From assembly GCF_000024465.1 (NCBI RefSeq), contig NC_014010.1:868001-932000 (forward strand): a stretch of 64,000 nt of DNA, read 5' to 3'. Below are positions 30,489 to 54,312 of this stretch, one piece after another. The notes under the pieces were generated by a model, which did no database searches, had not been told where the DNA came from, and saw only the letters and a list, made by a program, of their open reading frames with translations. The stretch comes from Candidatus Puniceispirillum marinum IMCC1322 (GTDB lineage Bacteria; Pseudomonadota; Alphaproteobacteria; Puniceispirillales; Puniceispirillaceae). A program made the translations under genes and the position numbers. Numbering within the stretch: position 1 is the first letter of the stretch; each line of letters opens with the position of its first letter.

Positions 30489-30498
30489 ACCGATGAAA

Positions 30499-31254: not shown

Positions 31255-31286
31255 GGCTATCTCCTAATTGATATCTTAGTTCAATA

Positions 31287-31303
31287 AGCAAGAGCCATGC
31301 CAA
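31287..31303 (-). promoter_or_regulatory. sigma-54-type promoter candidate for flgF
   Basis: On the minus strand the site reads TTTGGCATGGCTCTTGCTT, with GG-N10-GC spacing, about 35 bp upstream of the flgF ATG. It is almost identical to the flgG site, including the TTT before and TT after, suggesting a locally conserved consensus. Confidence 0.8.
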
Positions 31304-31352
31304 ACCAGCCTTAGCCAGTTTGGCATTTAATGTAGCGCTATTTTATCCGAAG

Positions 31353-36080: not shown

Positions 36081-36150
36081 TAGTTAGTCTCCTGTAATGC
36101 AATATATTATTCAAAATTTCAGTTTATTAGGGTTACTAGTCTGTGCGTCC

Positions 36151-36843: not shown

Positions 36844-36860
36844 TTATTCGGTCTCCGTTT

Positions 36861-37277
36861 CTATTTGCCCATGTTGATTGTGCGCATCATCAGAGCGCGT
36901 AAGGTGGTAACGACTTCAATATTATTCTGGTACTGGCGGCTAGCCTCCAGCATTTCTACAAACTCTTCTTCGACATTCACCGCAGCGCTATAGACAAAGC
37001 CTTTTGCGTCAGATTTTGGATGATCTGGCATATAAATACGCTCAGGCTTACGACTAAGCTTTGTTACACCAACCACTTGCGTGGTTGACATGCCGCTATC
37101 ATTAACATTGTCTGCAAAGCGCGTTTCGAAAACTGGCTTCATCGAGCGATAGGCTTCATCCTCGCTACTTGCCAGGTTTCCAGCATTAGCAAGGTTACTG
37201 GCGATCGTGTTGAGGCGCACCATTTGTGCGGCCATCGCCCGACCAGAAATATCAAAAACGTTTTTAATATCGGCCAT
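36861..37277 (-). CDS. flgC: FlgC, proximal rod protein
   Basis: The protein has 138 residues, as usual. The N-terminal motif VRLNTIASNLANAGNLASSE and the region EAYRSMKPVFETRF match FlgC. The C-terminal FVYSAAVNVEEEFVEMLEAS then RQYQNNIEVVTTLRALMMRT is the standard rod-protein end. Its start overlaps the flgB stop by one base, so the two are coupled. Confidence 0.95.
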   Translation of the reverse strand: MADIKNVFDISGRAMAAQMVRLNTIASNLANAGNLASSEDEAYRSMKPVFETRFADNVNDSGMSTTQVVGVTKLSRKPERIYMPDHPKSDAKGFVYSAAVNVEEEFVEMLEASRQYQNNIEVVTTLRALMMRTINMGK

Positions 37278-37663
37278 TACTCGCCCCTTATCGCCGACAT
37301 CAAGCCGGTTATGCGGTTGTTAAGAAAAGTGAGTGATGTTTGATAACGCATAACGTTTTCAGAAAATTCCATCTGTTCAACATTCAGTTCGACTGTATTT
37401 CCATCCAATGATGGATTTAATGGTTGACGATAAAGAACCTGATCTGGCCGACCATTCACCGCAGTTCTGATGTGACGTGCGTCAGAGCCATCCATAGTTC
37501 CATAGCCAGCAACACGACTGATTTCGTCTTCAAAATTAATATCACGTGCTTTGAAATTTGGAGTTGCAGCGTTGGCAATGTTCGACGCAAGAATATCGTT
37601 ACGTTTAGAGCGCAAAGACAATGCTGCCGAATGCACTTGCAAATAATCGCCAATTCCTTTCAT
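37277..37663 (-). CDS. flgB: FlgB, proximal rod protein
   Basis: The protein has 128 residues. It shows the FlgB pattern LRSKRNDILASNIANAATPN then FKARDINFEDEI near the N-terminus. The C-terminus is GNTVELNVEQMEFSENVMRY then QTSLTFLNNRITGLMSAIRG. It is the first gene of the flgB-L series and has a sigma-54-like promoter about 110 bp upstream, which overlaps a second site facing the other way. Confidence 0.96.
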   Translation of the reverse strand: MKGIGDYLQVHSAALSLRSKRNDILASNIANAATPNFKARDINFEDEISRVAGYGTMDGSDARHIRTAVNGRPDQVLYRQPLNPSLDGNTVELNVEQMEFSENVMRYQTSLTFLNNRITGLMSAIRGE

Positions 37664-37756
37664 TGTCTTACCTCTATATAGTTAACATTGATGGTTATAG
37701 ATCTCAGCTTTTCCACCCTTTTCAGGGTTTAAAAAACATCAACATAAACCGTCGAT

Positions 37757-37772
37757 TGGTCTGGAATTTGCA
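37757..37772 (+). promoter_or_regulatory. sigma-54-type promoter candidate for the 37808 gene
   Basis: The site reads TTGGTCTGGAATTTGCA, with GG-N10-GC spacing and a good TTTGC -12 element; the -24 element is weaker (TGGTCTG). It lies 36 bp before the ATG at 37808. Its GC (37770-37771) is shared with the minus-strand flgB site. Confidence 0.5.
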
Positions 37773-37785
37773 ATAAGGATGCCAA
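37770..37785 (-). promoter_or_regulatory. sigma-54-type promoter candidate for the flgB operon
   Basis: On the minus strand the site reads TTGGCATCCTTATTGCA, with GG-N10-GC spacing. It lies about 107 bp upstream of flgB, leaving a longer leader than at other sites. It overlaps the plus-strand candidate for the 37808 gene. Confidence 0.65.
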
Positions 37786-37807
37786 ATACAACGGCAAGGA
37801 TAAAAAA

Positions 37808-38821
37808 ATGGCTAGAACGACATTATCGAATAGTGCAGGTCCCGGCTCTTCAACGCCATTGGCACCTCAGACTATAAAAGTTCGCGATGCTGTAATCGCC
37901 AAGTGTGATGACCAGTCACTTGATGAGATGAATGAGTTTGTTAAAGGGCTGCTTGATCGCGAAACAGATGAACTGAAACGTCTTGGTATTCTGGCGGCGC
38001 GCGTTTACATTCTGCGCCAGCGGATTATGGCACTAATGGAGTCCGGCGCCTTAAAAAGTAACGATAAACAACTTGATTTTATCGATCCTGCACCCGCAGT
38101 AGCAGATGATAATCTTGATGATTTTTCTGATCTTGATAGTGATGTTAAAGACACGAACTGGATGCGTGTCCGCATTATTGAGAATTGTGAAGTTAATGGG
38201 GTTCGGTTCCCAAGCGGGGTTGTCATTGACGTTCATGCTGACGATGCCGCCAAATTAATTGAATTTGAGAAAGCCGAATTACAAGCAACCGATGTGAATG
38301 ATAAACCGCTTCCAGAAATGATTGCCTCGGCCGCTGACTTATCAGACATTCCTGACGACCTGATTGATATTTCTGATGAATTAACAGACATAAGTGAAGA
38401 CATGCTTAAAGAGTCAGATGACACGCTGGACGCGACTGATGGTCTGCCGGACGCGTCGGATGATATGATGGATATATCTGGTGAACTGGATGGGGAAGCT
38501 GAAAACCCTTTAGATACACCAACAGATGACATTATTGCTGAAAATGACATCATGCCTGAGGACATACCTAATGAAATCGATTTAACAGCACCCCTTTTTG
38601 AAGATAATAATGATGAAAATGAAGTTAGCCCATCTGATGATATAGCAGATAACGAGGCGATTGCCGCGGCTGTTGCGGACAAAATGCCAAAGGCTAGCGC
38701 CTCTTCACCCGATGGAGAACCTGTCGAAACCACCGAAGAAGATCTCCTCGCCGGCTTACAAGAGCTCACCGATCTAGACGAGATTGAAGCAGGGTCAGAT
38801 GACAGCAAAAAAGATAGCTGA
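37808..38821 (+). CDS. Unknown acidic protein in the flagellar locus
   Basis: I do not recognise this 337-residue protein. Residues 25-80 are helical (VRDAVIAKCDDQSLDEMNEF, VKGLLDRETDELKRLGILAA, RVYILRQRIMALM). Residues about 115-155 form a compact beta-like block (NWMRVRIIENCEVNGVRFPS, GVVIDVHADDAAKLIEFEKA). The last 170 residues are extremely Asp/Glu-rich with repeated DISDEL/DISED/DASDD motifs and few aromatics, so probably disordered. No signal peptide is seen. AAGGA lies before the ATG, and a sigma-54-like site lies 36 bp upstream, so it is probably in the flagellar regulon. A cytosolic scaffold or regulator is possible. Confidence 0.75.
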   Translation: MARTTLSNSAGPGSSTPLAPQTIKVRDAVIAKCDDQSLDEMNEFVKGLLDRETDELKRLGILAARVYILRQRIMALMESGALKSNDKQLDFIDPAPAVADDNLDDFSDLDSDVKDTNWMRVRIIENCEVNGVRFPSGVVIDVHADDAAKLIEFEKAELQATDVNDKPLPEMIASAADLSDIPDDLIDISDELTDISEDMLKESDDTLDATDGLPDASDDMMDISGELDGEAENPLDTPTDDIIAENDIMPEDIPNEIDLTAPLFEDNNDENEVSPSDDIADNEAIAAAVADKMPKASASSPDGEPVETTEEDLLAGLQELTDLDEIEAGSDDSKKDS

Positions 38822-38826
38822 TAATA

Positions 38827-39147
38827 GTGACGTATAGATTGAAATATTTTGTATATGGCGTTTTTGGATTTGGACTGATAATAGGGTTAACCAGTTGCAA
38901 AGGCATGTCTCGATTTGAACAGGAAACCTTTTCATGCGGTTTAAACGCAACAGGTATTATTGAGATCATTGTAAGGTCTATTGAACGTGGCGAGGATGCG
39001 ATCCTGACAACTGTGGACGGTGAAACTAGAATGCCCATCACGCAAAGCACTGACAATTTGATTGCAATATCTGACGGGCAAACAAACATCGTAATTGACC
39101 GTCACACTAAGATGTTAGAAGTCACCATCGCAGACAAAGTATATTAA
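38827..39147 (+). CDS. Small unknown lipoprotein
   Basis: The protein has 106 residues from a GTG five bases after the stop of the upstream acidic protein, probably co-transcribed. The N-terminus is a lipoprotein signal: a hydrophobic core (YFVYGVFGFGLIIGL) and lipobox LTSC at about residues 21-24. The mature part has an internal Cys, and beta-strand-like segments (TGIIEIIVRSIERGEDAI, LIAISDGQTNIVIDR). No family is recognised. A flagellar basal-body or outer-membrane role is inferred only from context. Confidence 0.65.
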   Translation: MTYRLKYFVYGVFGFGLIIGLTSCKGMSRFEQETFSCGLNATGIIEIIVRSIERGEDAILTTVDGETRMPITQSTDNLIAISDGQTNIVIDRHTKMLEVTIADKVY

Positions 39148-39196
39148 CTTGAATGCAAAAGCAGCATTTTCAAGATGTAGCCTTGTTAACTTTTAT

Positions 39197-39625
39197 CTAT
39201 TTTCCGTGAAACCGAACAATCGCATCAACATCACCTGCAGATAGCTTAGTTGCTTTCATTATCGCGTCTGCAGACGCACCTTTACGCGCCATTTCAATCG
39301 CTTTAGATGTGCCAACCTCACCCCGGACATCGTCAGTCAAACGCAATATATCCTCGCGCATGGAATCAAATGTTGCCCCATGCTCGGTGATCATATCACC
39401 CAATTTTGAAACATGCCCAGCAAGGCGCGACATGGTTTGGTTTTGAACTTCTAATTGTTGCGCTTGGTTTTGGAGCGCCTCGTCAAGTTTTTCTGACAGC
39501 AGCCTCTGTTCAGCCTGAACCGCGAGGCTTCGCCATACAACGACACCAAGTATGATTGCAACAGTCAGTAAAACAATGCCAGCAGGGCTCATAACAAAAG
39601 ATAAAAACGTATTCAGACTGTGCAT
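39197..39625 (-). CDS. DUF2802-like membrane-anchored coiled-coil protein
   Basis: The protein has 142 residues. One membrane helix (about 11-30, PAGIVLLTVAIILGVVVW) is followed by a coiled coil (LLSEKLDEALQNQAQQLEVQ to about residue 95). The C-terminal helix-turn-helix-like end is IEMARKGASADAIMKATKLS then AGDVDAIVRFHGK. This layout, with a C-terminal 'A..GAs...I...cgls..Ea..i...h' motif, matches the DUF2802 proteins that accompany polar flagellar and chemotaxis loci in gammaproteobacteria. It is the last gene of the flgP-flgT-flgA-flgM operon. Its biochemical function is unknown. Confidence 0.6.
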   Translation of the reverse strand: MHSLNTFLSFVMSPAGIVLLTVAIILGVVVWRSLAVQAEQRLLSEKLDEALQNQAQQLEVQNQTMSRLAGHVSKLGDMITEHGATFDSMREDILRLTDDVRGEVGTSKAIEMARKGASADAIMKATKLSAGDVDAIVRFHGK

Positions 39626-39671
39626 AGCAACGCCTTTTCTTTTTGCCAGCTATCAATACTGGCTTCCAATG

Positions 39672-39986
39672 CTAAATCGATTTATCAAGTGATTTGCGAA
39701 TATATTTTCCTAAATCATCTGACCATACGAGCCTAGCTCGCGTTTTAGCTTCCAGTAGATTTATCTTATCCAAGATTGCTGAAAGTTGCACCTTATCATC
39801 GGCACTAAATGTTCCACCTACTTGGGATGATTCAATTTCAGGCCAGACATCTTGAACCTGTTTTTCAATTTCTGCCAGCATAGCACGAAGATTAGCGGCA
39901 TCGTCCAGACGCACCAAAGCACTGTCAAGCGAGCGCTCGACAGTGTCAATAAGGGTCTGCGTTTTGGATGTGCGAATATCTGTCAC
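39672..39986 (-). CDS. FlgN-like flagellar chaperone candidate
   Basis: The protein has 104 residues from a GTG start. It is entirely helical and charged: TLIDTVERSLDSALVRLDDA, NLRAMLAEIEKQVQDVWPEI, LSAILDKINLLEAKTRARLV. FlgN is normally about 140 residues and lies next to flgM, as this gene does (15 bp after flgM). FlgN escorts FlgK and FlgL. The shortness and lack of a clear FlgN signature leave the call open; it could be a different small coiled-coil factor. Confidence 0.5.
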   Translation of the reverse strand: MTDIRTSKTQTLIDTVERSLDSALVRLDDAANLRAMLAEIEKQVQDVWPEIESSQVGGTFSADDKVQLSAILDKINLLEAKTRARLVWSDDLGKYIRKSLDKSI

Positions 39987-40001
39987 CTAAATAACCAGTA
40001 T

Positions 40002-40301
40002 TTAGGTTTTCAAATCCCTGTATGCATCCATTAGCGCATCAGAAATCAAATCAAGGTTAATTGGGTACTCACCGTTAGCAATCGCACTTTTGATGCGGTT
40101 AACCGCCTCAGCATTAACTGGTGGCTTTTCAGCCAGTTGTGCAATAGCCTGGGGTGAAGCCGCACCGCTCATCGTTACAGTATCGCGTGCGACTGGTGCT
40201 ACGTTGGACGCACCTGTTGCAACTGCTTTGCTGTCAAAATCACGATCGCGGGTTCTTTGAACCTCGACTCGATTGACCATATTTTTTATGGCATCAACCA
40301 T
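40002..40301 (-). CDS. flgM: FlgM, anti-sigma-28 factor
   Basis: The protein has 99 residues. The C-terminal FlgM domain is clear: VNAEAVNRIKSAIANGEYPI then NLDLISDALMDAYRDL, matching the helix that grips FliA. The N-terminal half is polar and disordered, as expected for a protein exported through the flagellum. FlgM holds FliA inactive until the hook is finished. Its partner fliA lies in this window at 47917. The gene follows flgA and precedes the FlgN-like gene. Confidence 0.9.
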   Translation of the reverse strand: MVDAIKNMVNRVEVQRTRDRDFDSKAVATGASNVAPVARDTVTMSGAASPQAIAQLAEKPPVNAEAVNRIKSAIANGEYPINLDLISDALMDAYRDLKT

Positions 40302-40337
40302 TAAAATAGCCTCCTAAAGATCATTAACGACTAGAAC

Positions 40338-41225
40338 TCACTGAATGTTAGCCCCTGTTGCAATTTTTTTTGAATTAATTATCTGGCCATGAACAATTTT
40401 ATCGCTATTCGCATTCTTGACCTTAATCCACTCACCAAATTGTCCATTTTCTAGGGCATATCCTAGCATACTGACAGCCACGGCACCAGCGCGATTCACC
40501 AATGTTACTTCTTGGTCTTTTTCGACCATCCAATATGGATGAAGCTGGCGGGCAAAGACTGGTTTCCTTGCAGAAATTGAAGTCTTTAAACGGCGTCCAA
40601 CCACATCATCATGATCAAAAAATACACCAACAACTTCACGCATCGACACATCAATAAACGCAACATCTTCAGGTGTGATTATATCGCCACGCGTCATGCT
40701 ACGGGTCAGGCTTACAACACGAGCCGTTTCCATTTGTTTGTTAGGTTTGGTGACTATGTTTCTTGATGTTCGAATGGTGGCTTTAACACTGGTTTTAGGT
40801 TTAGAAATACTGGTGTCTGGAGTCGCTGTTTTAATTTTTGTTCTTACGGCAACGCGCCACCCCGTTGCGTGTTCGCATTCCACGCGTACAGTTTGAAAAT
40901 TACCAAACATCGGGTTTACAGTCAGATCGCCATCACACTTTCGAAACAAGCGATCAGGATTTAAACTTGGCGTGGCTTCTACACCTTTGACTGACAAAAA
41001 CTGGGTGACAATTTCATTAATATATTCACCAGTAATAATTACACTGTCAGCGACCTTGCTGTCAGCCTTATCATCATTCAAAACTGAGGGCGGCACTGTT
41101 TTATTGGTACTTACAGCAGCCGCTGAACCTGCATTGACAATGCCCACAAACAGCCCAGCAACAACAGGCACCGCTAATTTGCTAATGCACAGCAAATTAT
41201 CCACCAATGAAATAGATCTGATCAC
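40338..41225 (-). CDS. flgA: FlgA, P-ring assembly chaperone
   Basis: The protein has 295 residues from a GTG at 41225, chosen because GGGGGAG lies 8 bp upstream; a GTG at 41246 is also in frame. A membrane/signal helix (KLAVPVVAGLFVGIVNAGSAA) is followed by the periplasmic part. The C-terminal SAF domain is typical: ARVVSLTRSMTRGDIITPED, REVVGVFFDHDDVVGRRLKT, VTLVNRAGAVAVSMLGYALE, then NGQFGEWIKVKNANSDKIVH. FlgA helps FlgI assemble into the P-ring. It overlaps the upstream LysM/FimV-like gene by 29 bp. Confidence 0.9.
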   Translation of the reverse strand: MIRSISLVDNLLCISKLAVPVVAGLFVGIVNAGSAAAVSTNKTVPPSVLNDDKADSKVADSVIITGEYINEIVTQFLSVKGVEATPSLNPDRLFRKCDGDLTVNPMFGNFQTVRVECEHATGWRVAVRTKIKTATPDTSISKPKTSVKATIRTSRNIVTKPNKQMETARVVSLTRSMTRGDIITPEDVAFIDVSMREVVGVFFDHDDVVGRRLKTSISARKPVFARQLHPYWMVEKDQEVTLVNRAGAVAVSMLGYALENGQFGEWIKVKNANSDKIVHGQIINSKKIATGANIQ

Positions 41226-41640
41226 TTTGTGAACTCCCCCCGCCACTGGTTGCCTTTGACTTGTTCTTGCCCAAGATCATATCTTGAATTTCATTCAATG
41301 ACGGCAGATGCAATGTTTTATCAGCATAAAGAAAATTTGGATTACCTCTTACAAAGGCTTTGGCATTAGCAGCAACAATAGCCATTTCGATGAATTTCAA
41401 ATTCAGTCCGCTATTGGCATAATGCTTGTTAATGACATGGCTTAGCGTTTCATTTTGCGCGACCTTGTGTTTAGTTGTGTAATTTGGATCAATGACGAAC
41501 GGATTATTGCTATCCACATTGCCAGACGCTGACTGATTTGGATATTCAAGGACAACAAGCGGTTGAGACTGGGCAAATGCACCTATTGAAACTGTTAAAC
41601 CAGTTAGCAAGGTTATTGTTAAAATAGTACGTATAATCAT
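41197..41640 (-). CDS. Secreted LysM/FimV-N-like protein
   Basis: The protein has 147 residues with a Sec signal peptide (IIRTILTITLLTGLTVSIGAF, cleavage near AFAQS). The mature part contains a LysM/FimV-N-like block: HKVAQNETLSHVINKHYANS, IEMAIVAANAKAFVRGNPNF, then LYADKTLHLPSLNEI. This recalls the FimV pattern of a gapped LysM in which residues are bound in the periplasm near the cell pole. The tail is Gly/Ser-rich. Its start overlaps flgT by four bases. Peptidoglycan binding at the flagellar pole is a reasonable guess. Confidence 0.6.
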   Translation of the reverse strand: MIIRTILTITLLTGLTVSIGAFAQSQPLVVLEYPNQSASGNVDSNNPFVIDPNYTTKHKVAQNETLSHVINKHYANSGLNLKFIEMAIVAANAKAFVRGNPNFLYADKTLHLPSLNEIQDMILGKNKSKATSGGGSSQSDQIYFIGG

Positions 41641-42824
41641 TGCGTTAACTCCATAAATTCAACCTTTGCGCCCTGTAACATATTTTTATCACGCGCGGGG
41701 TTCAAGGGCTCTAGGACGACCGATCGTGCATCCGCTTTTGAAACACGCAAAATAGTCCAGAGGGTATCAGTACCGCTGGTCACAGCTAGTGAATTTTGGC
41801 CTACACCATGTTTTTTGCCAAGAGGCACAGTTAAAACACCATCAGCTAATGTTAGCGTGCTGACAAGAGGGCGGCAGGTGAGTTGTTGCGACAGGTCATT
41901 GATGAAGCGAGGCATCATGCCGAAAATATGGGCAGTGACGTCTTTACGCTTGCCGCGGGACAGCACATTGAACGTACGCGACGGCGATATATCGCTGAGC
42001 TTGATCGTCTGTGTTACGCTGTGATCAAGGACTGGCGCGTAGGACACCCCATCAGCAACATGCATGGTGACGGTCACATCAAGCACCATTTCATCGCGCA
42101 GAAACTTGCCTATTTTTCGGGCATTGAACGAAATTTCGGGGATAAAAGCAAAATCACCTGTAGCAACCCGCACCCGCCCCTGGGTCAGCGAGGTATAGTC
42201 AAACGCATCATTGGTCCGCGCCAGCGCCGCCGCATCAAGCGTGGTGGTAATCGCCCCCCGCGTCTTCAGATTGGGATGACGCTCCATCTGCATCAGCATC
42301 TCGGATACACTGGTTCTGGCAATCGGTGCCAGCCATGCAGGCACCGTTGGCCCGACATAAATAGATGGGGCAAATACGGTCACATTGTGGTGCCGCGGCG
42401 TCACACATTCAACTTTCGGCAGTTCGCCAACAGCCGCCCGCACGCTAACCATATAATGCTGATCATCAACAATCTCATTGGTGATGGTATAATCAAGAAT
42501 GCGGCTCGATGGACGCACAATAAAATGATCGGTCAAGGTGGTATCCGCTGACACCGCCGAAAAGCCGTTCACCTCGGCACCGCCCTGTAAAGCCACCTGA
42601 TAAAGTGCATCTTCAAGCGCAATCATACGGGCTTCATCCTGTGCCGCATCATCCATGATGACAGCGCGGCCTGTGGCCTCGGCAAAACGGAAACCGTCAG
42701 CCCCAATCGCCGCTGACATGAATAGACCACATAGCAAAACGAACCAAACCGGCAGTACTGCAATAATCAGTACACACCAGTTTGGCAGGGAGAACGGGAT
42801 AATGGAAACACCATCTTTTTTCAT
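41637..42824 (-). CDS. flgT: FlgT-like H-ring/outer-membrane ring protein
   Basis: The protein has 395 residues with an N-terminal membrane or signal helix (residues 15-42). The N-terminal FlgT domain is recognisable: AEATGRAVIMDDAAQDEARM then IALEDALYQVALQGGAEVNG. The middle domain has TPRHHNVTVFAPSIYVGPT. The C-terminal domain has TLADGVLTVPLGKKHGVGQN then SLAVTSGTDTLWTILRV, typical of FlgT. In Vibrio, FlgT forms the H-ring that stabilises LP rings and recruits MotX/Y. Neighbour flgP supports the call. Base composition becomes visibly more GC-rich within this gene. Confidence 0.75.
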   Translation of the reverse strand: MKKDGVSIIPFSLPNWCVLIIAVLPVWFVLLCGLFMSAAIGADGFRFAEATGRAVIMDDAAQDEARMIALEDALYQVALQGGAEVNGFSAVSADTTLTDHFIVRPSSRILDYTITNEIVDDQHYMVSVRAAVGELPKVECVTPRHHNVTVFAPSIYVGPTVPAWLAPIARTSVSEMLMQMERHPNLKTRGAITTTLDAAALARTNDAFDYTSLTQGRVRVATGDFAFIPEISFNARKIGKFLRDEMVLDVTVTMHVADGVSYAPVLDHSVTQTIKLSDISPSRTFNVLSRGKRKDVTAHIFGMMPRFINDLSQQLTCRPLVSTLTLADGVLTVPLGKKHGVGQNSLAVTSGTDTLWTILRVSKADARSVVLEPLNPARDKNMLQGAKVEFMELTQ

Positions 42825-42886
42825 TGTTCTGCTTTACACCCCAGAGCGTGACACGGCGTATATTCTGACGCCTGTTAGCAACAGTT

Positions 42887-43441
42887 TTAGCCGACGCTGC
42901 GTGCGCTTCCCATCAGATGCGCAATCATGTCACGGTCAATTTCCAAAACGATTTCGTATGTATCCGAACCTGTCGGGTTGATACGCACGGTACGCGCGCC
43001 CCGGATCGTTCCCGAAACAACACCACGGAAAGTATCATTCTGAACCATAAGATCGATAACTGTTGTCGAACTGTCCACCTGTAGGCCGTGGATCTGTTCG
43101 GCAAGGTCGCGCATAGCAACCATACGGGCTGACCGAATAGCCATCAGACGCTTTTGCGCATCCGAGCGCCCAGGCTGTGATGACACAACAGCATAACCAA
43201 CCGCCGTCAAAGTCGGAATTTCGTCTGCGCCCGCGTCAAACACCTCGGCAACCGATGCCAGTGATGTTGCCTGGCTTTGTTCAAGCGTTGATAAGCCTGT
43301 GCCGCTGGTGGACATCGCCGATTTACCACTAAGGCTATCGGCAAGTTGACAGCCAGACACCGCCAATGACGCCGCCATAAGGGCCGCAAATGTAATTAAA
43401 GTATTCCGCTTGGGTGTATTAAGCATGGATGTTTTTTGCAT
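42887..43441 (-). CDS. flgP: FlgP/LPP20-family flagellar lipoprotein
   Basis: The protein has 184 residues. A lipoprotein signal ends in lipobox VSGC (about residue 31). The LPP20/FlgP region runs from about residue 80: TAVGYAVVSSQPGRSDAQKR, LMAIRSARMVAMRDLAEQIH, GLQVDSSTTVIDLMVQNDTF, then RGVVSGTIRGARTVRI. FlgP forms outer-membrane-associated disks or rings in Vibrio and Campylobacter. It leads the operon flgP-flgT-(LysM)-flgA-flgM and has a good sigma-54-like promoter about 43 bp upstream. Confidence 0.8.
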   Translation of the reverse strand: MQKTSMLNTPKRNTLITFAALMAASLAVSGCQLADSLSGKSAMSTSGTGLSTLEQSQATSLASVAEVFDAGADEIPTLTAVGYAVVSSQPGRSDAQKRLMAIRSARMVAMRDLAEQIHGLQVDSSTTVIDLMVQNDTFRGVVSGTIRGARTVRINPTGSDTYEIVLEIDRDMIAHLMGSARSVG

Positions 43442-43483
43442 GGGTCCGTTCCATTCTTCAAAAATTTGATACGCACCAGCTAT

Positions 43484-43498
43484 GCATTATCCGTGCCA
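43484..43498 (-). promoter_or_regulatory. sigma-54-type promoter candidate for flgP operon
   Basis: On the minus strand the site reads TGGCACGGATAATGC, with a perfect TGGCACG -24 element and GG-N10-GC spacing. It lies 43 bp upstream of the flgP ATG and about 60 bp from the divergent flhA site. Confidence 0.75.
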
Positions 43499-43558
43499 CT
43501 CATCTCAAGTGACGGGTTTTCGGGCTTTTCCCGATGAAAATGCCGGTTTTTTTCATTC

Positions 43559-43574
43559 TGGCACGCTTATTGCC
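43559..43574 (+). promoter_or_regulatory. sigma-54-type promoter candidate for flhA operon
   Basis: The site reads TGGCACGCTTATTGCC, which fits the textbook TGGCACG-N4-TTGC consensus. It lies 167 bp before the flhA ATG and 63 bp before a small leader ORF. It should drive flhA-flhF-flhG-fliA, placing fliA under sigma-54 control. Confidence 0.85.
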
Positions 43575-43636
43575 TTTATTTACGCGGGTGCTGTCAGCTC
43601 AACTGGCTGCAACATATAGTTAAAAAGGCATAAAGC

Positions 43637-43750
43637 ATGTTTATTCAATCTATTAGCAATAATATAGCTAATCCAATCCGGCGCCATGTCCCGGGGTTTG
43701 CATCACATGCTGTTCAATATACTGACAGAGGATATGCGTCATGGAAATGA
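43637..43750 (+). CDS. Possible 37-aa leader peptide overlapping the flhA start
   Basis: A short ORF with AAAGG about 8 bp upstream encodes a 37-residue peptide starting MFIQSISNNIANPIRRHV. Its stop lies 8 bases inside flhA, so it could couple translation into flhA. ISNNIAN resembles the NNIAN motif of rod and hook N-termini. There is no homologue I recognise, and it may be chance. Confidence 0.3.
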   Translation: MFIQSISNNIANPIRRHVPGFASHAVQYTDRGYASWK

Positions 43751-45843
43751 CACTCGCCCGATTTGGCATCAACGATCCAAAGGCTCTGGTAACGACTGGC
43801 ATTTTGCCGGTCGGTATTCTGGTGCTGATTTCAATGATGGTTCTACCCTTACCGGTATTTCTGCTTGATACGTTTTTTGTCTTTAATATCCTGATGTCTT
43901 TACTGATCCTGATGGTGGCGATGAACGCATTGCGGCCACTGGATTTTTCAAGTTTCCCCAGCCTGCTTCTGATCGCCACAATCCTGCGGCTTGGTCTGAA
44001 CGTGGCTTCAACCCGGATTGTGCTAAGCGAAGGCCATACAGGTGGTGATGCTGCCGGTCAGGTCATCAAGGCGTTTGGCGAATTCGTTATTTCCGGCAAT
44101 TACGCTGTCGGTATTTTTGTATTTATCATTCTTATTATTATTAACCTTGTTGTGATCACCAAGGGTGCTGGCCGTGTTTCAGAAGTTTCAGCCCGCTTTA
44201 CTCTTGATGCAATGCCAGGCAAACAGATGGCAATCGACGCCGATTTGAATGCCGGTGTGCTGACCAATGAGGAAGCACGCGACAGGCGCGAAGAAATTGC
44301 CAGTGAGGCCGATTTTTACGGAGCCATGGATGGTGCATCAAAATTTGTCAAAGGTGATGCTGTAGCGTCGATTTTGATCCTGATCATCAATATCGTTGGC
44401 GGTCTGATCATCGGTATTTCACAGCATGATCTGTCAGTCAGCGTGGCTGCCGAAAACTATATTCTACTGTCTATCGGTGATGGTCTGGTCGCGCAGATCC
44501 CGTCTTTGCTATTAGCCATTGCCACAGCGATCATCGTCACCCGCGTATCATCAACCCAAGATATGGCCGCACATATCGGCGATCAGATCAGCCTGTCACG
44601 TGCATGGGCCCCTGTTTCCGGCGTTCTGATGTTGATCGGTTTTGTTCCGGGTATGCCTAATCTGCTGTTTATCGGCGCGGCGCTGATTGCGGCCGGTGCA
44701 GGCTATTGGTCCTATACAAAGGAACGCAAAGCGCTGGAAGATGTTGGTGCCGAAGAGCTGGCCGAACTGGAAGATGTAGCCAAGTCACCCGATCTTATCG
44801 AACTTGACGAAATTGCCGATAATGCGCCGGTTTCAATCCAGCTTGGTTACGGGCTTGTCGAAATGGTCGAGGAAGATACTGGCGGTCCATTGACCAACCG
44901 CGTTACCGGCATTCGCCGTCAGGTATCAAAGGCCCTTGGCTTTATCGTGCCCGCGGTTCGTATCCGCGATGATATGAGCTTGCCAGCGAACACCTATCGC
45001 ATCCGCATTGGCCCGACCATCGTAGGCGAAGATCAGGTCTATCCGGATCGCAAACTGGCCATTCCAGGTGACAATGTGAATATCAAAATTGACGGCATTG
45101 AAGTCAAAGACCCCTCATTCGGTATGGATGCCATCTGGATTACCAGCCAGCAACAGACCGAAGCCGAGGCCAAAGGATATGTCGTGGTGGCACCGGAATC
45201 AGTGCTGTCAACGCATCTGAGCCAGATACTTTACAAATTTGCCGGTCAGCTTATCGGTCAGGATGATGTTCAGGGTCTGCTTGATAATCTGGGACAAACA
45301 TCACCAAGTCTGGTTGAATCAGTTGTGCCAAAGCTGGTGCCGCTTCATACATTGACAGGTATTTTGCGTACCTTGCTTGAGGAGCGTGTGCCGGTCAGCG
45401 ATCTGCGCGGCATTCTGGAGAATATGTCAGGGCTGGCAGCGCGTAATCTGTCCACTGCCGATATGGCCGAGGCGTTGCGCCCTGCCCTTGCCGGATTGCT
45501 GATCCAGCAGGTCGCACCCTTGAACCAGCCTTTGCCCGTTATCACGCTTAATTCCGATCTGGAACATATGCTTATTTCAATGGCACGTCAGAGTGGCGAT
45601 CAGGGACTGGTGCTGGATAACAGCCTAGCCCAGCAGCTTCTGGAAAGAATTTCAGCCGCCAATGAAACATTGGCATCACAAGATAAGCAAGCCGTGATCG
45701 TTGTATCACCAGCGATCCGCCGCGAATTTTCAGCCATTATCCGTCAGCATATCGACGATATGGTTGTCCTAGCCTTTACCGAATTACCTGAAACACGAAA
45801 AATCGAAGTCGTTGCGACCATCAGTGGCGAAGCCAGCGCATAA
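43741..45843 (+). CDS. flhA: FlhA, flagellar export gate protein
   Basis: The protein has 700 residues, the normal length. The N-terminal half holds about eight membrane helices, including VISMMVLPLPVFLLDTFFVF-like and LLLIATILRLGLNVASTRIV. The conserved FHIPEP-type loop is VVITKGAGRVSEVSARFTLD then AMPGKQMAIDADLNAG. The cytoplasmic domain (from about residue 350) forms the nonameric ring that docks chaperone-substrate pairs, with FVVPAVRIRDDMSLPANTYR-like and VAPESVLSTHLSQILYKF. The gene leads flhA-flhF-flhG-fliA, with a strong sigma-54-like site upstream. Confidence 0.97.
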   Translation: MEMTLARFGINDPKALVTTGILPVGILVLISMMVLPLPVFLLDTFFVFNILMSLLILMVAMNALRPLDFSSFPSLLLIATILRLGLNVASTRIVLSEGHTGGDAAGQVIKAFGEFVISGNYAVGIFVFIILIIINLVVITKGAGRVSEVSARFTLDAMPGKQMAIDADLNAGVLTNEEARDRREEIASEADFYGAMDGASKFVKGDAVASILILIINIVGGLIIGISQHDLSVSVAAENYILLSIGDGLVAQIPSLLLAIATAIIVTRVSSTQDMAAHIGDQISLSRAWAPVSGVLMLIGFVPGMPNLLFIGAALIAAGAGYWSYTKERKALEDVGAEELAELEDVAKSPDLIELDEIADNAPVSIQLGYGLVEMVEEDTGGPLTNRVTGIRRQVSKALGFIVPAVRIRDDMSLPANTYRIRIGPTIVGEDQVYPDRKLAIPGDNVNIKIDGIEVKDPSFGMDAIWITSQQQTEAEAKGYVVVAPESVLSTHLSQILYKFAGQLIGQDDVQGLLDNLGQTSPSLVESVVPKLVPLHTLTGILRTLLEERVPVSDLRGILENMSGLAARNLSTADMAEALRPALAGLLIQQVAPLNQPLPVITLNSDLEHMLISMARQSGDQGLVLDNSLAQQLLERISAANETLASQDKQAVIVVSPAIRREFSAIIRQHIDDMVVLAFTELPETRKIEVVATISGEASA

Positions 45844-45891
45844 CCATGATGGCATTCGCCTCAACAGATGTGACTATGAAAGGATAAAATA

Positions 45892-47043
45892 ATGGCAACC
45901 ATAACCGTATCAGCATCAGATACCGCAGCTGCAATGGATGAGATTTTCCAGAAGCTCGGAGATGATGCAATGATCCTGGAAACAGCCAATCGAAATGGCA
46001 AGATCGAAATGGTCGCGACGAATGACGCGGCGCAACGTGTCAAGGTCAGGCCGTCAAAAGTGGCCAAGAAAGCCCCTGCCTTTACCGAGCTTTTCGATCA
46101 GAAACTGGTTCAAGAGCCAATCGAGGACATGCCACAGGGTGATGCCAATATAACGGCGGATTTTGCCCTGAAAGCATTGGCGAAAAGCCAAAGCGAGGAT
46201 CAATCATCACCATCTGATATGGCAGCGATGCGCAAAGATATGGCGATGCTGAAATCGATGCTGACAGGCATGATGATTACCGATGAGAACGGTCTTAGCG
46301 AAAAACTGGGGCATAGCACGACGATCAAGCTCCGTCAGGCCGGATTTTCACCCGAAGTGGTGAACGAATTGCAACATGCGTTTGAAGGCCAAACTTATGA
46401 AAAGGCGCGGTTGAGCTTTATGAACGAACTGGCACGCCAACTGATCCGCCCGAATACCGAGGATCTGTTCGAAGCCCGCCTGATTTGCGTGGTGGGATCA
46501 AGCGGTAGCGGCAAGACAACGCTGGCAACCAAAATTGCGGCGCATTGCAAGGAAACCGGTATCGCCAATAACATGATACTGGGCACGGTCACATCCGAAA
46601 GACAGGCAGGTGACACCATCAAGGATCATGCCCGTTTGATGAATATGCCATCGGTTGATTTTCCGCTTGCGGAACTGCCAATCCGGGTCAAGGAAACAAG
46701 CCGCCGGATGATTATGGATGTATCAGCACAACCAGATCAGGCGGTAGCCGCGATCCGCAAAGCCACGGCAGCGCTGGATCCAGCGCGGGTTGCCGTTGTG
46801 CAGGCCATTCCAGGCGGTAGCAGCAGTGTGATGATCGCGCATCAGTGCGCATTATATAAACAATTGTCACCAACCATTGCGCTGACCAAACTGGATGAGT
46901 GCGAAGCCACCCCGCCAGAGCTTTGCAGTCTGCTGACGCATGGCAATGGTATCGGGCTGTTGACAGGGACAAAGTCCATTGTTGGCGGAATAGCCATTGC
47001 TACAGACGCAATATTAGCGCAATATTTAAAAGAGAACTGCTAA
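45892..47043 (+). CDS. flhF: FlhF, SRP-type GTPase for polar flagellum placement
   Basis: The protein has 383 residues. The N-terminal B domain shows AAMDEIFQKLGDDAMILETA, the FlhF start pattern. A variable linker leads to the NG domain: P-loop VGSSGSGKTT (201-210) and TKLDE specificity motif (332-336). The G3 element, normally DTAGR, reads MDVSAQ (275-280), so hydrolysis may be impaired. FlhF marks the pole where the first flagellar parts assemble. It lies between flhA and flhG, 48 bp after flhA, as in Vibrio and Pseudomonas. Confidence 0.9.
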   Translation: MATITVSASDTAAAMDEIFQKLGDDAMILETANRNGKIEMVATNDAAQRVKVRPSKVAKKAPAFTELFDQKLVQEPIEDMPQGDANITADFALKALAKSQSEDQSSPSDMAAMRKDMAMLKSMLTGMMITDENGLSEKLGHSTTIKLRQAGFSPEVVNELQHAFEGQTYEKARLSFMNELARQLIRPNTEDLFEARLICVVGSSGSGKTTLATKIAAHCKETGIANNMILGTVTSERQAGDTIKDHARLMNMPSVDFPLAELPIRVKETSRRMIMDVSAQPDQAVAAIRKATAALDPARVAVVQAIPGGSSSVMIAHQCALYKQLSPTIALTKLDECEATPPELCSLLTHGNGIGLLTGTKSIVGGIAIATDAILAQYLKENC

Positions 47044-47115
47044 TGAAAGCGCTGATGTATTTACTTTTGTCCGTTACGGGCAACTTTGTTTTTTCTAAGC
47101 CGGAGTGATCCTGAC

Positions 47116-47913
47116 ATGGCATCTTCAATTGCAGTTGCAAGTGGTAAAGGCGGCGTTGGCAAAACCAACATTGCTGTCAATCTTAGCCTGACCCTGTCCC
47201 GCATGGGGAAAAAGGTTACCTTGCTCGACGCCGACTTTGGTATGGCCAACGCCCATATTCTGCTGGGGGTAAATCCGCAAAATTACATCAGTGACGCGAT
47301 TAGCGGCAGTGTGCCATTAGCCGATACGGTTTGTCCGGGGCCTTTGGGGATGAATTTCCTGTCGGGAGGCAGTGGTCTTCTGGACATGCTGAATCTGGAC
47401 AAGAAAACCCGCTATGAAACCATCCGGCTGATGGATAATCTGGAGCCAAAGCCCGATGTTCTGGTGGCGGATGTTCCCGCTGGCGCGTCCGATAATTCGA
47501 TTGCCTTTGTGGCGGCGGCCGACCGCGTTGTTGTGGTTCTGGTTGGTGAGCCGACAAGCTTTCTTGATGCCTATTCGCTGATCAAGGCGGCCAATCTGGA
47601 AGCGGGTGTGCAGAATTTTTCAATTGTCGTGAATATGGTGACAGGCAAAGGCCAAGCGCAAGCACATTTTGCTAAATTCCAAAACATCGTGTACCGTTTT
47701 CTGGATGTAAAGTTAGAGTTAGCTGGATATTTACCGTTGTCAAACCGGATCAGAAAATCGATTGTCGAACGTCGTCCGATTAGTCTGGGTGATAAGAATC
47801 TTCCCGAAAATCTGGCGCTGCAAAGCCTGTCCAAAGCCGTAATGGACGCCACCCCCAACCAATCCAATGGCATTCGCTATTTCAGCAAAACGCCAAATAT
47901 GGTAGGAGCATAG
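47116..47913 (+). CDS. flhG: FlhG/FleN, MinD-type ATPase limiting flagellar number
   Basis: The protein has 265 residues from the ATG at 47116, with GGAG about 10 bp upstream; an in-frame upstream start is less likely. Deviant Walker A ASGKGGVGKTNIAVNLSLTL lies at the very N-terminus. LLDADFGMANAHILLGVNPQ, VLVADVPAGASDNSIAFVAA and EPTSFLDAYSLIKAANLEAG match FleN. The FlhF-stimulating DQAxxLR helix is absent, as in FleN. FlhG antagonises FlhF and, in Pseudomonas, the activator FleQ. It is 3 bp upstream of fliA. Confidence 0.93.
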   Translation: MASSIAVASGKGGVGKTNIAVNLSLTLSRMGKKVTLLDADFGMANAHILLGVNPQNYISDAISGSVPLADTVCPGPLGMNFLSGGSGLLDMLNLDKKTRYETIRLMDNLEPKPDVLVADVPAGASDNSIAFVAAADRVVVVLVGEPTSFLDAYSLIKAANLEAGVQNFSIVVNMVTGKGQAQAHFAKFQNIVYRFLDVKLELAGYLPLSNRIRKSIVERRPISLGDKNLPENLALQSLSKAVMDATPNQSNGIRYFSKTPNMVGA

Positions 47914-47916
47914 CCC

Positions 47917-48642
47917 ATGAAATCCGGTTACGCGGAACAAAAACCCGACGTTGAAGGCCTGATCCGCGATCATATGGAGCTGGTGCGCCAGATCGCATGG
48001 CATATTCATGGCCGGGTTCACGCGTCCGCCGAAATCGAAGATCTGGTGCAGATTGGCTATTACGGGCTGGTCATGGCCGCCCAGAATTATACGGTACAGG
48101 AAGGGGCGACCTTTAGCTCTTATGCCAGCATCCGTATTCGCGGCAGTATTGTCGATCATCTGCGCAAAAATTCAAATCTGTGCCGGACGACAATCCAGAT
48201 GCAAAAAAAGGCACGACAATCCGAAGAAATTCTGCGCCAGAAGCTGGGGCGTGATCCGTCTATTGATGAGGTCGCCAGTGATCTGGATATAGCCCCCGAA
48301 GAAATGCGCGAATGGGAACAAGCCTTTCAGGCGAATGTGCATCAGTCGCTGGATAATGTGTATGACGAATTTTCAATCTGGTTTGTGTCGAATGAAAATA
48401 CCCCAGAAGATAATATAAGCGACAATGAATTGCGCGACGTTCTGAAAGATGCGCTGACCACACTGCCCGAACGTGAGGCCTTGGTTATTCAGCTTTATTA
48501 TGTCGAAGAATTGAATGTATATGAGATTGCCGAAATTCTGGATGTGACCACAGGGCGCGTATCGCAGATCAAAAAGGCAGCCATCGCCCGCCTGCGCGGC
48601 TATATGGAACAGATCGATGAACAGGAAGCCATAAGTGGCTGA
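47917..48642 (+). CDS. fliA: FliA, flagellar sigma-28 factor
   Basis: The protein has 241 residues, the normal length. Region 2 reads AEIEDLVQIGYYGLVMAAQN and ATFSSYASIRIRGSIVDHLR. Region 3 is LRQKLGRDPSIDEVASDLDI. Region 4 has LTTLPEREALVIQLYYVEEL then NVYEIAEILDVTTGRVSQIK. FliA transcribes late flagellar genes and is held by FlgM. GGAGCATAGCCC precedes the ATG. It is unusual among alphaproteobacteria, many of which lack FliA. Confidence 0.95.
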   Translation: MKSGYAEQKPDVEGLIRDHMELVRQIAWHIHGRVHASAEIEDLVQIGYYGLVMAAQNYTVQEGATFSSYASIRIRGSIVDHLRKNSNLCRTTIQMQKKARQSEEILRQKLGRDPSIDEVASDLDIAPEEMREWEQAFQANVHQSLDNVYDEFSIWFVSNENTPEDNISDNELRDVLKDALTTLPEREALVIQLYYVEELNVYEIAEILDVTTGRVSQIKKAAIARLRGYMEQIDEQEAISG

Positions 48643-49099
48643 GGCCAAGGCAAGCATGTGGCACCAAACCGACCAGATCAATATGTCGGTACAAATGGCC
48701 GATATATCGCTGGATGCGTCTAGGGCAGCTCTTGATGGGTCTAGCGAAGCTCTGACGCTGAAAATCAACTGCAATTTGAAGAATATCGCCCGTGGCCAAT
48801 GCGCCGTGACGATCCAGCCCCGTGCAGATGCCCCCGATGACAGCGGGACAGCCGAGAACGCAGCGCGTGGGCAACTGCATATTTTTGTTGATCGTCCACT
48901 TATGACCGCCACGGTAACCGTATCGGCGCGTTATTTTGACCAGCTTACAGGTTTTATGAGCAGGGCCAGTAGCCGCCCGATGGAGCTGGTTCTGACGCTG
49001 GAAGATGCGTTGGCGGTGAGCCTCGACGGGGATTTGCGCATCGATAGCGAAACCATCATCGCCATCACCGGCATAGTGGCCACTATACCGGTGAAATAG
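48635..49099 (+). CDS. Unknown protein overlapping fliA
   Basis: I do not recognise this 154-residue protein. It starts with GTG and overlaps the end of fliA by 8 bp, so it is translationally coupled. It has no signal peptide or membrane helix. The second half is beta-rich (ARGQLHIFVDRPLMTATVTV, SARYFDQLTGFMSRA, MELVLTLEDALAVSLDGDLR). It is the last gene of the flhA-fliA unit, convergent with the rod-like gene. A motility-linked cytosolic role is inferred from coupling only. Confidence 0.65.
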   Translation: MAEAKASMWHQTDQINMSVQMADISLDASRAALDGSSEALTLKINCNLKNIARGQCAVTIQPRADAPDDSGTAENAARGQLHIFVDRPLMTATVTVSARYFDQLTGFMSRASSRPMELVLTLEDALAVSLDGDLRIDSETIIAITGIVATIPVK

Positions 49100-49124
49100 C
49101 TGTATCAGCCGAATGACAAGAAGA

Positions 49125-49934
49125 TTAAAGGAATTTCTTGACGATATCAGAGTCAGCCTGCAACATCCGCGAGGAAGCCGAATAAGCCTGTTGTGCGCGG
49201 ATCATGCTGGTCAACTCGTCATTGATCTTGACGTTTGAAACTTCAAGATTGCCGCTTAGCACATCGCCGAAATTGCCCTGGCTAGCGGCGCCAACCGCCG
49301 GCAAGCCGGTTTTGGCATTCATGATAAACTGGCCATTGCCCTTGGAGGTCAGATCAGCCTCGTTCTGAAAGCGTGCCAAAGCAATGGTCCCGCGATTGAT
49401 AACCGCACCATTGCCGCGGGTCATCGCGCCAGCATATGTCGCCTTGATCTGGCCATCAACGCCAATCGAAACCGAGGTCAGAAGCTCTTCAGCCGCGACA
49501 TCGCCATCTTCAGCAGGATTGCGCCGCAACGGCAAACGCAACGGGGCACCATCAAGGCCAATCAGAAAATGACCTTCGTTATTGACAATGAAACCATTCT
49601 CATCAAGGCGCATCGAACCATCGCGCGTGTAGCGTAGCTCATTGCCTGCATTCGGCGGGGCGACGATAAACATGCCCTCGCCAGCAACCGCCAGATCAAG
49701 CTCGCTGCCGCTGGTCTTGAACGCCCCTTGCGCATGATTACGGCGGGATGCGTCAAACACCGTGCCCTTGCCCACCTGCGCGGCGGCGCGCTTCTCACCA
49801 GCTATGCCATAAATATCCTGAAACTGGGCGGATGACCGCTTGAAGCCATTGGTGCTGGCATTGGCGATATTGTTGGAAATGACACCGATTTCCTTGTTGG
49901 CGGCGGCGATTCCTGACCTGATTATGGCTAGCAT
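49125..49934 (-). CDS. Orphan rod/hook-family protein (FlgE/F/G type)
   Basis: The protein has 269 residues. The N-terminal rod motif is IAAANKEIGVISNNIANAST then NGFKRSSAQFQDIYGI. The DLAVAGEGMFIVAPP block and the C-terminal LSGNLEVSNVKINDELTSMI then RAQQAYSASSRMLQAD complete the flagellar basal-body rod pattern. flgF and flgG are already present in the flgB-L series, so this is a third paralogue. It lacks large hook inserts and is FlgF-sized. GGGTCACT precedes the ATG. A weaker GG-N10-GA sequence lies at 49970-49983 on the minus strand. Confidence 0.88.
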   Translation of the reverse strand: MLAIIRSGIAAANKEIGVISNNIANASTNGFKRSSAQFQDIYGIAGEKRAAAQVGKGTVFDASRRNHAQGAFKTSGSELDLAVAGEGMFIVAPPNAGNELRYTRDGSMRLDENGFIVNNEGHFLIGLDGAPLRLPLRRNPAEDGDVAAEELLTSVSIGVDGQIKATYAGAMTRGNGAVINRGTIALARFQNEADLTSKGNGQFIMNAKTGLPAVGAASQGNFGDVLSGNLEVSNVKINDELTSMIRAQQAYSASSRMLQADSDIVKKFL

Positions 49935-53064: not shown

Positions 53065-54312
53065 CTATGTTTGTGCTGTCGCATTAGCCGCTTTTTTTTT
53101 CGTCGCTGGTTTTGTCTTTGCCAGAATCGCTGCCTGTTCTTCTTCAAGCAGTTTCTTTTTTTCCGCATCCTTTATGGCAAGTTTTTCAAAGATCGCCAGC
53201 GCTTCATCAGCTTTGAGTTTATGCAGAACGCCTTTTTTCACCTGATCTGGTGACCACATCCAGTTTTTGTTGAAATCATATTTCATCGCCCATGCGCCGA
53301 AAACACGTCCATTCACGTTCTTTCCACGCAATCTTTTGATATCCGTATGACGTTTATCAACGAGTATTTTTTCGTAAAGGGCATCGATGGATTCTTTCGG
53401 CCCTTCCAGAAATTGAAGATAGAAATCAGACCGGCAAATAAGACAGCCTGTCACTTTCAGGGGGGCATTATTCGCCATAGCAGACCGCAGAACATCTTTC
53501 AAGATGCCGTTACTGAAATCGGTTGGCTTTGAAACATAAATAATCTGTTTCACCTTTTCAGGTTTCGGCACTTTTTTCTTGGGGCCCGATTTTATGGGCA
53601 GAACAGTTTTAACATTGTAATCAATATCATGGATAGTGAATAATTTGTCATGCGCGGTGGTTCTTTCCTCTTCCCATAGTTGTTCATCTTCCTTGCTTTC
53701 AAAAACGAAAAAGCTGCCCAGAATCTGTTGGCGACGCCGGATGGTTATTAGCGTAATCTGTTCGACGGTTCTGGCGTAAATCGTTTCGATCGTTTCCATC
53801 GTGGGTTTGATATCAAATTCTTCGATATATTCACGATCTACGGCGGCGCGTAAGCGCTCTAATGTATCACGCTTGACGTTTGCCGCGGCCTGACGGGTGG
53901 CGCGTTCCAATCGGCTGGCTTCAAGTGCCAACTCATGGCGCTGGTCATAGCTAGGCCGTTTGATGATGATCCATAAAGTCATATTATCTTCATCAAACTT
54001 CATCTCGTCAAAACCAGCAGACCGCATAACCCGCCTTACATCACGGACAATATCCAATCGGGTAACAGACACACTGAAAAATCTGGCTTTGGGGTCATTT
54101 TCGAGATGGACTTCGGCAAAGTCGGTAAGATGACGGTTGCGATAATCGATAACAACCCGCACACCATATAAAATATTTTTGAGGGTATCGAGTGACGCCA
54201 ATTCATTTAGCGAATGGATGTAGCCATCAAGCATGGCTTCGATACGGTTTTTACACGCACGGGAATAGGAGTCTGCAACCTTCCCCATTCCTAAATCCAT
54301 AAGACCACCCAC
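53065..54312 (-). CDS. BLUF blue-light sensor protein with RRF-like N-terminal domain
   Basis: The protein has 415 residues. Residues about 255-350 are a BLUF domain: KQIIYVSKPTDFS, ANNAPLKVTGCLICRSDFYL, QFLEGPKESIDALYEKILVD, and FGAWAMKYDF. The flavin-site residues Tyr259, Asn282, Gln300, Trp341 and Met343 match AppA Tyr21, Asn45, Gln63, Trp104 and Met106. Residues about 12-195 resemble ribosome recycling factor: a long helix, a compact beta block, MTLWIIIKRPSYDQRHELAL and RQAAANVKRDTLERLRA, matching RRF 'L.I.iP...eERR.elvk' and 'iRRdaN..lk'. The tail is Lys/Ala-rich coiled coil. Light-tuned ribosome binding is inference. BLUF is near certain; the RRF-like part needs structural comparison. 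Confidence 0.8.
   Translation of the reverse strand: MGGLMDLGMGKVADSYSRACKNRIEAMLDGYIHSLNELASLDTLKNILYGVRVVIDYRNRHLTDFAEVHLENDPKARFFSVSVTRLDIVRDVRRVMRSAGFDEMKFDEDNMTLWIIIKRPSYDQRHELALEASRLERATRQAAANVKRDTLERLRAAVDREYIEEFDIKPTMETIETIYARTVEQITLITIRRRQQILGSFFVFESKEDEQLWEEERTTAHDKLFTIHDIDYNVKTVLPIKSGPKKKVPKPEKVKQIIYVSKPTDFSNGILKDVLRSAMANNAPLKVTGCLICRSDFYLQFLEGPKESIDALYEKILVDKRHTDIKRLRGKNVNGRVFGAWAMKYDFNKNWMWSPDQVKKGVLHKLKADEALAIFEKLAIKDAEKKKLLEEEQAAILAKTKPATKKKAANATAQT

Follow-up and report, generated by a model that had tools for sequence, protein, structure and literature searches.

What does a BLUF photoreceptor domain do when it is joined to a protein with the fold of ribosome recycling factor (RRF)? 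The question is raised by one open reading frame of Candidatus Puniceispirillum marinum IMCC1322, a marine bacterium of SAR116 type, situated in the stretch of 64,000 nucleotides that we analyzed (NC_014010.1, positions 868,001 to 932,000; hereafter the window). Read from a GTG start at 54312 on the minus strand, it encodes 415 aa without internal stop; its true coding start may be the in-frame ATG at residue 5 (Met5) or at residue 9 (Met9). The following parts can be distinguished:

53065..54312, minus strand: whole fusion ORF, open reading frame of 415 aa
53713..54276, minus strand: RRF-fold module, residues 13-200, three-helix bundle plus beta domain (Pfam RRF, model, VIA match)
53557..53712, minus strand: linker, residues 201-252 (model); net charge of the whole linker -2
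53167..53556, minus strand: BLUF domain and C-terminal cap, residues 253-382 (Pfam, alignment, VIA)
53068..53166, minus strand: end of the C-terminal helix and Lys/Ala-rich tail, residues 383-415 (alignment, model)

The fusion of RRF-like and BLUF domains is real in sequence and in predicted structure. An AlphaFold2 model, based on 48 related sequences of which three are canonical RRFs, has a mean pLDDT of 83.8 and presents its elements in the order of an RRF followed by a BLUF domain. Given its pTM of 0.55, the model does not fix the mutual placement of the two domains. Foldseek returned RRFs and BLUF proteins together for this model (6vud at 8.4e-10, 1x0p at 6.8e-10). The reading frame is open across the linker, which contains a helix at 207-230, falls below pLDDT 50 at 225-245 and is, by eye, lysine-rich in its last part. 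Most of the Lys/Ala tail extends beyond the ends of 15 aligned standalone BLUF proteins.

The C-terminal half is, as judged from its sequence and model, a BLUF domain with intact photochemical residues and hence a predicted photoreceptor. Pfam BLUF (PF04940) covers residues 256-344 (2.9e-24, 85.4 bits against a cut-off of 25), and VIA-align places residues 252-383 on BLUF protein 2hfo with Z 19.1 and rmsd 2.3 over 130 aligned residues. Tyr259, Asn282, Gln300, Trp341 and Met343, the five residues named in the original prediction, do not vary when the fusion is aligned with 15 standalone BLUFs from the host order. The predicted AppA-like spacing is present as well: the steps from Asn to Gln (18) and from Gln to Trp (41) are the same in both proteins, while Tyr to Asn is 23 in the fusion and 24 in AppA. 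The nearest relatives of this half are standalone proteins of one genus (g8), identical at 55.6-57.8% of positions; together with a second genus (g4) the range is 42-58%. A BLUF tree unites the fusion, with 100/100 support, with the g8 proteins and some of those from g4. In the g8 genomes, BLUF and RRF-like genes are on different contigs, and no flagellar gene was found near standalone BLUFs in six loci.

One separate observation concerns an unrelated alphaproteobacterium (G371), in which pyrH and canonical frr are separated by a BLUF gene (L172:4750-6854; G371:C1:2126000-2138000). The BLUF gene occupies 5654-6139 of that locus, scores 60.2 bits with Pfam BLUF and has, by eye, Asp at the expected Asn. 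A search of the other 198 genomes of the G371 family gave no close homolog (the next best is 34% identical over most of the length), and we therefore treat this adjacency as an isolated case.

For the N-terminal part, the original prediction had proposed the RRF order of elements and had named a fold search as a test that could refute this reading. The search returned RRFs. Residues 13-200 align with residues 2-185 of RRF 1dd5 at Z 16.0 (VIA-align, rmsd 5.1, 181 aligned) and with E. coli RRF 1ek8 at Z 14.7 (rmsd 5.8, 182 aligned); the high rmsd across both RRF domains may come from a different hinge in the model. Pfam RRF (PF01765) matches residues 36-198 at 7.5e-8, with 32.8 bits against a cut-off of 29.7. 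The idea of an unrelated helical protein in residues 1-200 was rejected on this match, on the fold comparison and on the paralog profile described below. In a PDB sequence search with the fusion, BLUF proteins matched well and one RRF appeared at E 0.15, and the NCBIfam frr equivalog model (TIGR00496) gives 16.8 bits, far under its cut-off of 149.1.

The sequence of this half places it in a divergent family of RRF paralogs that has lost most canonical residues. The family is apparently undescribed; no name for it was found in the open-licence papers searched. The window genome itself (G000) carries a standalone member at 1602997-1603602, 30% identical to the N-terminal half of the fusion and matched by the fusion at 5.3e-26. 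When the 136 genomes of the host order were searched with a profile built from the paralogs, 78 gave hits, or 76 after removal of G052 and G058, whose weak hits resemble canonical frr; a weak second hit in G135 was also dropped. The fusion aside, open frames at the hits in these 136 genomes reach at most 293 aa. In a sample of the class, 13 of 288 genomes are hit, and the strong hits outside the order belong to family f11 (three genomes) and family f19 (one).

A relation of these paralogs to RRF can also be seen without canonical sequences. A paralog profile containing no canonical rows hits canonical RRFs at 7.4e-6 to 1.5e-11 and the frr of the window genome at 6.5e-7, the E-values of this comparison with canonical RRFs being computed for a small set of fetched ORFs. 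The predicted structure of the standalone paralog, built from 31 sequences that include no canonical RRF, likewise has the RRF fold, with RRF 4gfq as the best match (Z 15.7, rmsd 2.7, 183 aligned). Pfam RRF matches 23 of 31 family members at E of 1 or less; the standalone paralog of the window genome is matched at 0.001, below cut-off. In a tree of 78 rows (L071 removed for its overlong frame, rows identical in the last 150 residues collapsed), all 34 canonical RRFs lie on one side of a 100/100 branch of length 4.13 and the fusion on the other. The bootstrap of this tree had not settled, and the fusion sits on a long branch (1.59) with an unsure nearest neighbor (95/45).

The window genome, a single contig of 2,753,527 bases with completeness of 100%, has a canonical frr at 545601-546089 (7.5e-64). 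It stands in tsf-pyrH-frr-uppS (neighbors named by eye); the fusion is located outside the pyrH-frr operon. The fusion cannot be the sole RRF of the organism with this gene elsewhere in the genome. Further, of the positions at which at least 95% of 34 canonical RRFs agree, 43 by a count that depends on the alignment, it retains only 8. We conclude from both facts that it is not the housekeeping RRF. The standalone paralog retains 7 of the 43, and family members on average 16%. Numbered as in the host's own canonical RRF, Arg28, Arg31 and Arg129 are replaced in the fusion by Ala, Asp and Ala, and Arg132 by Lys. Among 43 other paralogs, Arg31 and Arg129 are kept in none. The family has near-invariant positions of its own, which in fusion numbering are Y16, R60, a Pro, K147, E161, I163 and G199. 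The fusion keeps six of these seven (each shared by at least 90% of the members), with Lys118 in place of Pro. Considering also the high model confidence, the RRF-like half is not visibly decaying.

These residues bear on the inference drawn in the original prediction, namely that blue light might be linked to the ribosome. The RRF-like module would then bind 50S or 70S, either competing with RRF or serving in hibernation or stalling, and would be gated by the BLUF domain. Both RRF domains are indeed present in order and fold. R132 is important for E. coli RRF (a structure titled Arg132Gly mutant, 1ise, is among the RRF structural matches), and a positive residue persists there: Lys in 42 of the 43 other paralogs, and NVKRD in the fusion where the host's own canonical RRF has NVRRD. 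At position 28, four of these paralogs have Arg and 18 have Lys, together 22 of 43. The BLUF gene between pyrH and frr in G371 could likewise be read as a second link between BLUF and RRF; its Asp for Asn and its lack of close homologs in 198 related genomes speak against this. The remaining 35 of 43 near-invariant positions lost, the equivalog score and the normal frr in its usual operon weigh against a ribosomal function, and so does the fact that the recurrent neighbors of the family, where there are any, are flagellar. The domains named in the original prediction thus stand, while the link from light to ribosome has been weakened by residue loss, the normal frr and the linkage to motAB. 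We regard a light-gated ribosome factor as unlikely.

Flagellar linkage of the family was counted from the places of MotB and RRF-like hits in the 136 genomes of the order. Both are found in 66 genomes, on the same contig in 46 and within 2.5 kb in 42. The close pairs comprise family f4, where the distance holds in 40 of 40 genomes from four genera, and genus g5 (2 of 2). In eight measured loci the RRF-like gene lies 3' of motB in the same direction after a gap of 15-167 bp. For example, in L039 (2962-5777) it starts 36 bp past motB, MotA and MotB being confirmed by Pfam. Away from f4, the two genes are this close in only 2 of the 26 genomes that carry them; in 20 of the 26 they are on different contigs of mostly draft assemblies. 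Larger distances between RRF-like gene and motB are 13 kb (G011), 16 kb (G001) and 1.8 Mb (G013). In the window genome the fusion is 60 kb from motB and the standalone paralog 742 kb.

Of 31 RRF-like loci, read over 6 to 12.6 kb, 10 contain MotB and one (L216) another flagellar gene. The 20 with no flagellar neighbor include the standalone paralog of the window genome, g2, g4, g8, g10, g15, g20, part of g7, f19 and other f11 copies; a single setting common to the RRF-like genes of all lineages was not found. That most loci outside f4, g5 and f11 have no flagellar neighbor is a point in favor of the ribosomal alternative. In f11, which lies outside the host order, two loci (L217, L218) read rpoN, an Lcl_C-like gene, motA, motB, a 307-aa ORF, the RRF-like gene (on the other strand), two conserved ORFs, flhB, fliR and fliP, where rpoN and fliP were named by eye. 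The same neighborhood is found in two g5 loci (L222, L227). Copies in f11 at L220 (4998-5600) and L221 (3-596) have no such flagellar neighbors. The f11 genomes G337 and G142 carry two RRF-like genes each; the second one of G337 and that of G256 have no flagellar neighbor in the stretch read. In G124, a genome with 7% contamination, the RRF-like gene is on the contig of fliF, fliG and fliI.

In the window genome, rpoN, motA, motB, flhB and fliR follow the same order as in linked relatives. The gap after motB (L226:6360-6720; G000:C1:856001-868100) contains no RRF-like gene, and a six-frame profile search of it gave nothing significant. From the shared order and the empty gap we infer that the place next to motAB is probably ancestral and was vacated in this genome and in other lineages.

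Co-occurrence points in the same direction as linkage, in tests that ignore relatedness. In the 136 genomes, 66 have both RRF-like and MotB hits, 10 only RRF-like, 23 only MotB and 37 neither (Fisher p 3e-9); the 43 good genomes are divided 21/4/9/9 in the same order (p 0.02). With FliG the counts are 56/20/27/33 for the whole set (p 8e-4) and 21/4/8/10 for the good genomes (p 0.009). Four of the 25 good genomes with an RRF-like gene have no MotB hit (G015, G026, G027, G121), two of these (G026, G121) have neither FliG nor MotB, and G031 and G048 give no FliG hits. Nine good genomes have MotB without the RRF-like gene. Given G026, G121 and these nine, the RRF-like family is not strictly needed for flagella, nor flagella for the family.

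The fusion itself is placed near, not within, a large group of flagellar genes:

1032..49934, no strand assigned: flagellar gene cluster, the part within the window, with a few other genes interspersed (Pfam and by-eye naming)

FliM, FliG, FliF, flagellin, FlgE, FlhA, a FliA-type sigma factor and a FlgF/G-type rod protein were checked with Pfam and the remaining genes of the cluster named by eye. The fusion follows 3.1 kb past the end opposite motB. A 128-aa ORF, a Sel1-type repeat protein (below the Pfam cut-off) and malonyl-CoA decarboxylase stand between, and a CoA-transferase is upstream, so that the immediate neighbors are the decarboxylase and the transferase. These metabolic neighbors support neither translation nor motility. 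In 18 loci of relatives with RRF-like or BLUF genes, no synteny with genes of the window was found except for the fusion itself.

Sigma-54 consensus sites without mismatch occur in the region of the flagellar cluster at 4514, 14305, 30473 and 43559. Control of the fusion by sigma-54 was rejected, as 54313-54518 contains no site within two mismatches; no sigma-28 site was found in this interval either. A weak sigma-70-like site at 54347-54320 was not counted as evidence. An inverted repeat TGGCA-C-TGCCA lies at 54410-54420, at a distance of 98 bases upstream from the GTG; if two mismatches or fewer are allowed, the pattern is commoner in the window (49) than in shuffled sequence (26.5).

We suggest, with a probability of roughly 0.43, that the fusion is a two-domain photoreceptor that provides a blue-light input to motility, the RRF-like family being a flagellar accessory which is here gated by BLUF. 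What turns us to motility rather than ribosome recycling is the position of RRF-like relatives beside motAB in f4, g5 and f11. With less assurance, and as a tentative proposal, we extend this to the fold as such: it might have left translation and become a stator or motor accessory of flagella in marine Alphaproteobacteria, which fusion to BLUF in this organism would turn into a single-protein switch for swimming. Standalone members would be soluble accessory factors that work on the stator or motor or close to it, or that influence how stators are produced. In the fusion, the flavin of the BLUF domain would absorb blue light and the assembly or contacts of this domain would change. Across the flexible linker, predicted to be partly disordered, the changed contacts might alter the availability of the RRF-like module, and swimming would be adjusted by blue light. 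The release of PixE by PixD on blue light (PMC5812497) can serve as a template for the gating step.

Several observations stand against this proposal: the linkage in 2 of 26 genomes outside f4 and the 20 loci without flagellar neighbor; the position of the fusion away from motAB, among metabolic genes and with no sigma-54 site; the standalone paralog of the same genome being remote from flagellar loci; and the presence of the fusion in a single genome. Moreover, gene linkage to motAB is not interaction. A role from light to motility is nevertheless the best-supported candidate function of the fusion.

A combination of both ideas can also be considered. The RRF-like family might influence how flagellar proteins are translated or assembled, for example at ribosomes making membrane stator proteins, and the fusion would add light control. 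Such a role would join the RRF fold with the motAB linkage; it inherits the difficulty of 8 of 43 canonical positions kept. It appears improbable to us. We judge in much the same way the option that the RRF-like half is only a scaffold or relic, while BLUF, in the manner of short BLUF proteins, acts through a partner of its own. The standalone state of the closest BLUF relatives (g8 and g4) and the very low confidence of the linker at 225-245 would fit this, but a half that keeps six of seven family positions and is modelled with high confidence does not look like a relic. It is very unlikely that two adjacent genes were joined by a sequencing error or that the fusion is a functionless accident of the strain: it occurs in one genome only, whose genus has no other member in the comparison set, but the contig is single and complete, the frame is open across the linker, and four relatives with both genes (G007, G020, G022, G033) have them on different contigs, so that adjacency is not their usual state.

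As for distribution, the search for the same architecture proposed in the original prediction confirmed the fusion in the window genome and brought no second copy; the RRF-BLUF fusion therefore rests on one genome. PF04940 is found in 13 of 136 genomes of the order at 17 places, and only the open frame of the fusion, 416 aa by this count, exceeds 185 aa. In the class sample it is found in 55 of 385 genomes at 76 places. Forty loci of this sample were read, comprising every above-cut-off place with a frame of at least 296 aa except the window's own, plus others; three below-cut-off places (frames of 313-325 aa) and further places are outside this reading. The only RRF match in the 40 is the canonical frr of L172. 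A scan of GTDB with exact short patterns of the fusion gave no relative, and a scan with the BLUF alignment gave 11 loci, eight of them labelled SAR116 cluster or Candidatus Puniceispirillum and none with an RRF-like or RRF frame. Plasmid origin was rejected: 149 plasmid records match, none covering 80% of the query, and the best 20 of the 149 match the BLUF side only. Phage origin was rejected too, since the two matching phage records share only a BLUF part. A pattern scan of viral contigs found no relatives of the fusion, a viral fold library gave no convincing match, and no PHROG was matched.

In the open-licence literature we found no paper on BLUF together with ribosome recycling factor, nor on SAR116 with ribosome recycling factor. 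By title, nothing related was found for Puniceispirillum with BLUF, and nothing on a link between RRF-like proteins and the motor for ribosome recycling factor with flagellar motor. Published work reports that BLUF homologs are widespread in marine microorganisms (PMC8805636) and that motility of Acinetobacter is altered by blue light (PMC3554667). Effects of BLUF proteins on motility are thus on record, for PixD (PMC5812497) and in this last case, and they favor our reading.

RRF is among the most conserved translation factors. If our reading is true, a family that keeps its fold, loses its signature residues and accompanies flagellar motor genes in several lineages would be a clear example of a translation-factor fold with a new job. 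BLUF domains commonly regulate the domains joined to them, and for this reason the fusion is a clue to the job of the RRF-like family; light makes this job accessible to assays. Sunlit surface water is rich in SAR116 bacteria, so a direct route from light to motility would bear on their behavior.

Taken together, the fusion can be compared with several known systems. With the BLUF photoreceptors AppA, PixD/Slr1694, BlrB, TePixD and the photoactivated adenylyl cyclases it has the fold and the five residues in common, and it differs in the partner, an N-terminal RRF-fold module where the usual partner domains are EAL, GGDEF or cyclase. With Frr (PF01765, TIGR00496) it shares the full two-domain fold and a Pfam RRF score over the cut-off; it differs in residues (8/43), operon place and equivalog score. 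Standalone RRF-like paralogs of SAR116 and relatives share its fold, its side of the tree and six of seven family positions, and unlike the fusion they have no BLUF domain and, in f4 and g5, lie directly 3' of motAB. Standalone BLUFs of SAR116 (MED-G116, AG-901-J20, AG-893-M18) are 56-58% identical to it over about 130 residues and, at 147-166 aa, possess neither the RRF-like part nor the Lys/Ala tail. Comparable in the working we propose is the phototaxis module PixD-PixE of Synechocystis, in which a BLUF protein is proposed to hold or release a motility regulator (PMC5812497). There the two are separate proteins, the partner is of CheY-PATAN type and the machinery is type IV pili, whereas here a single fusion would act on flagella.
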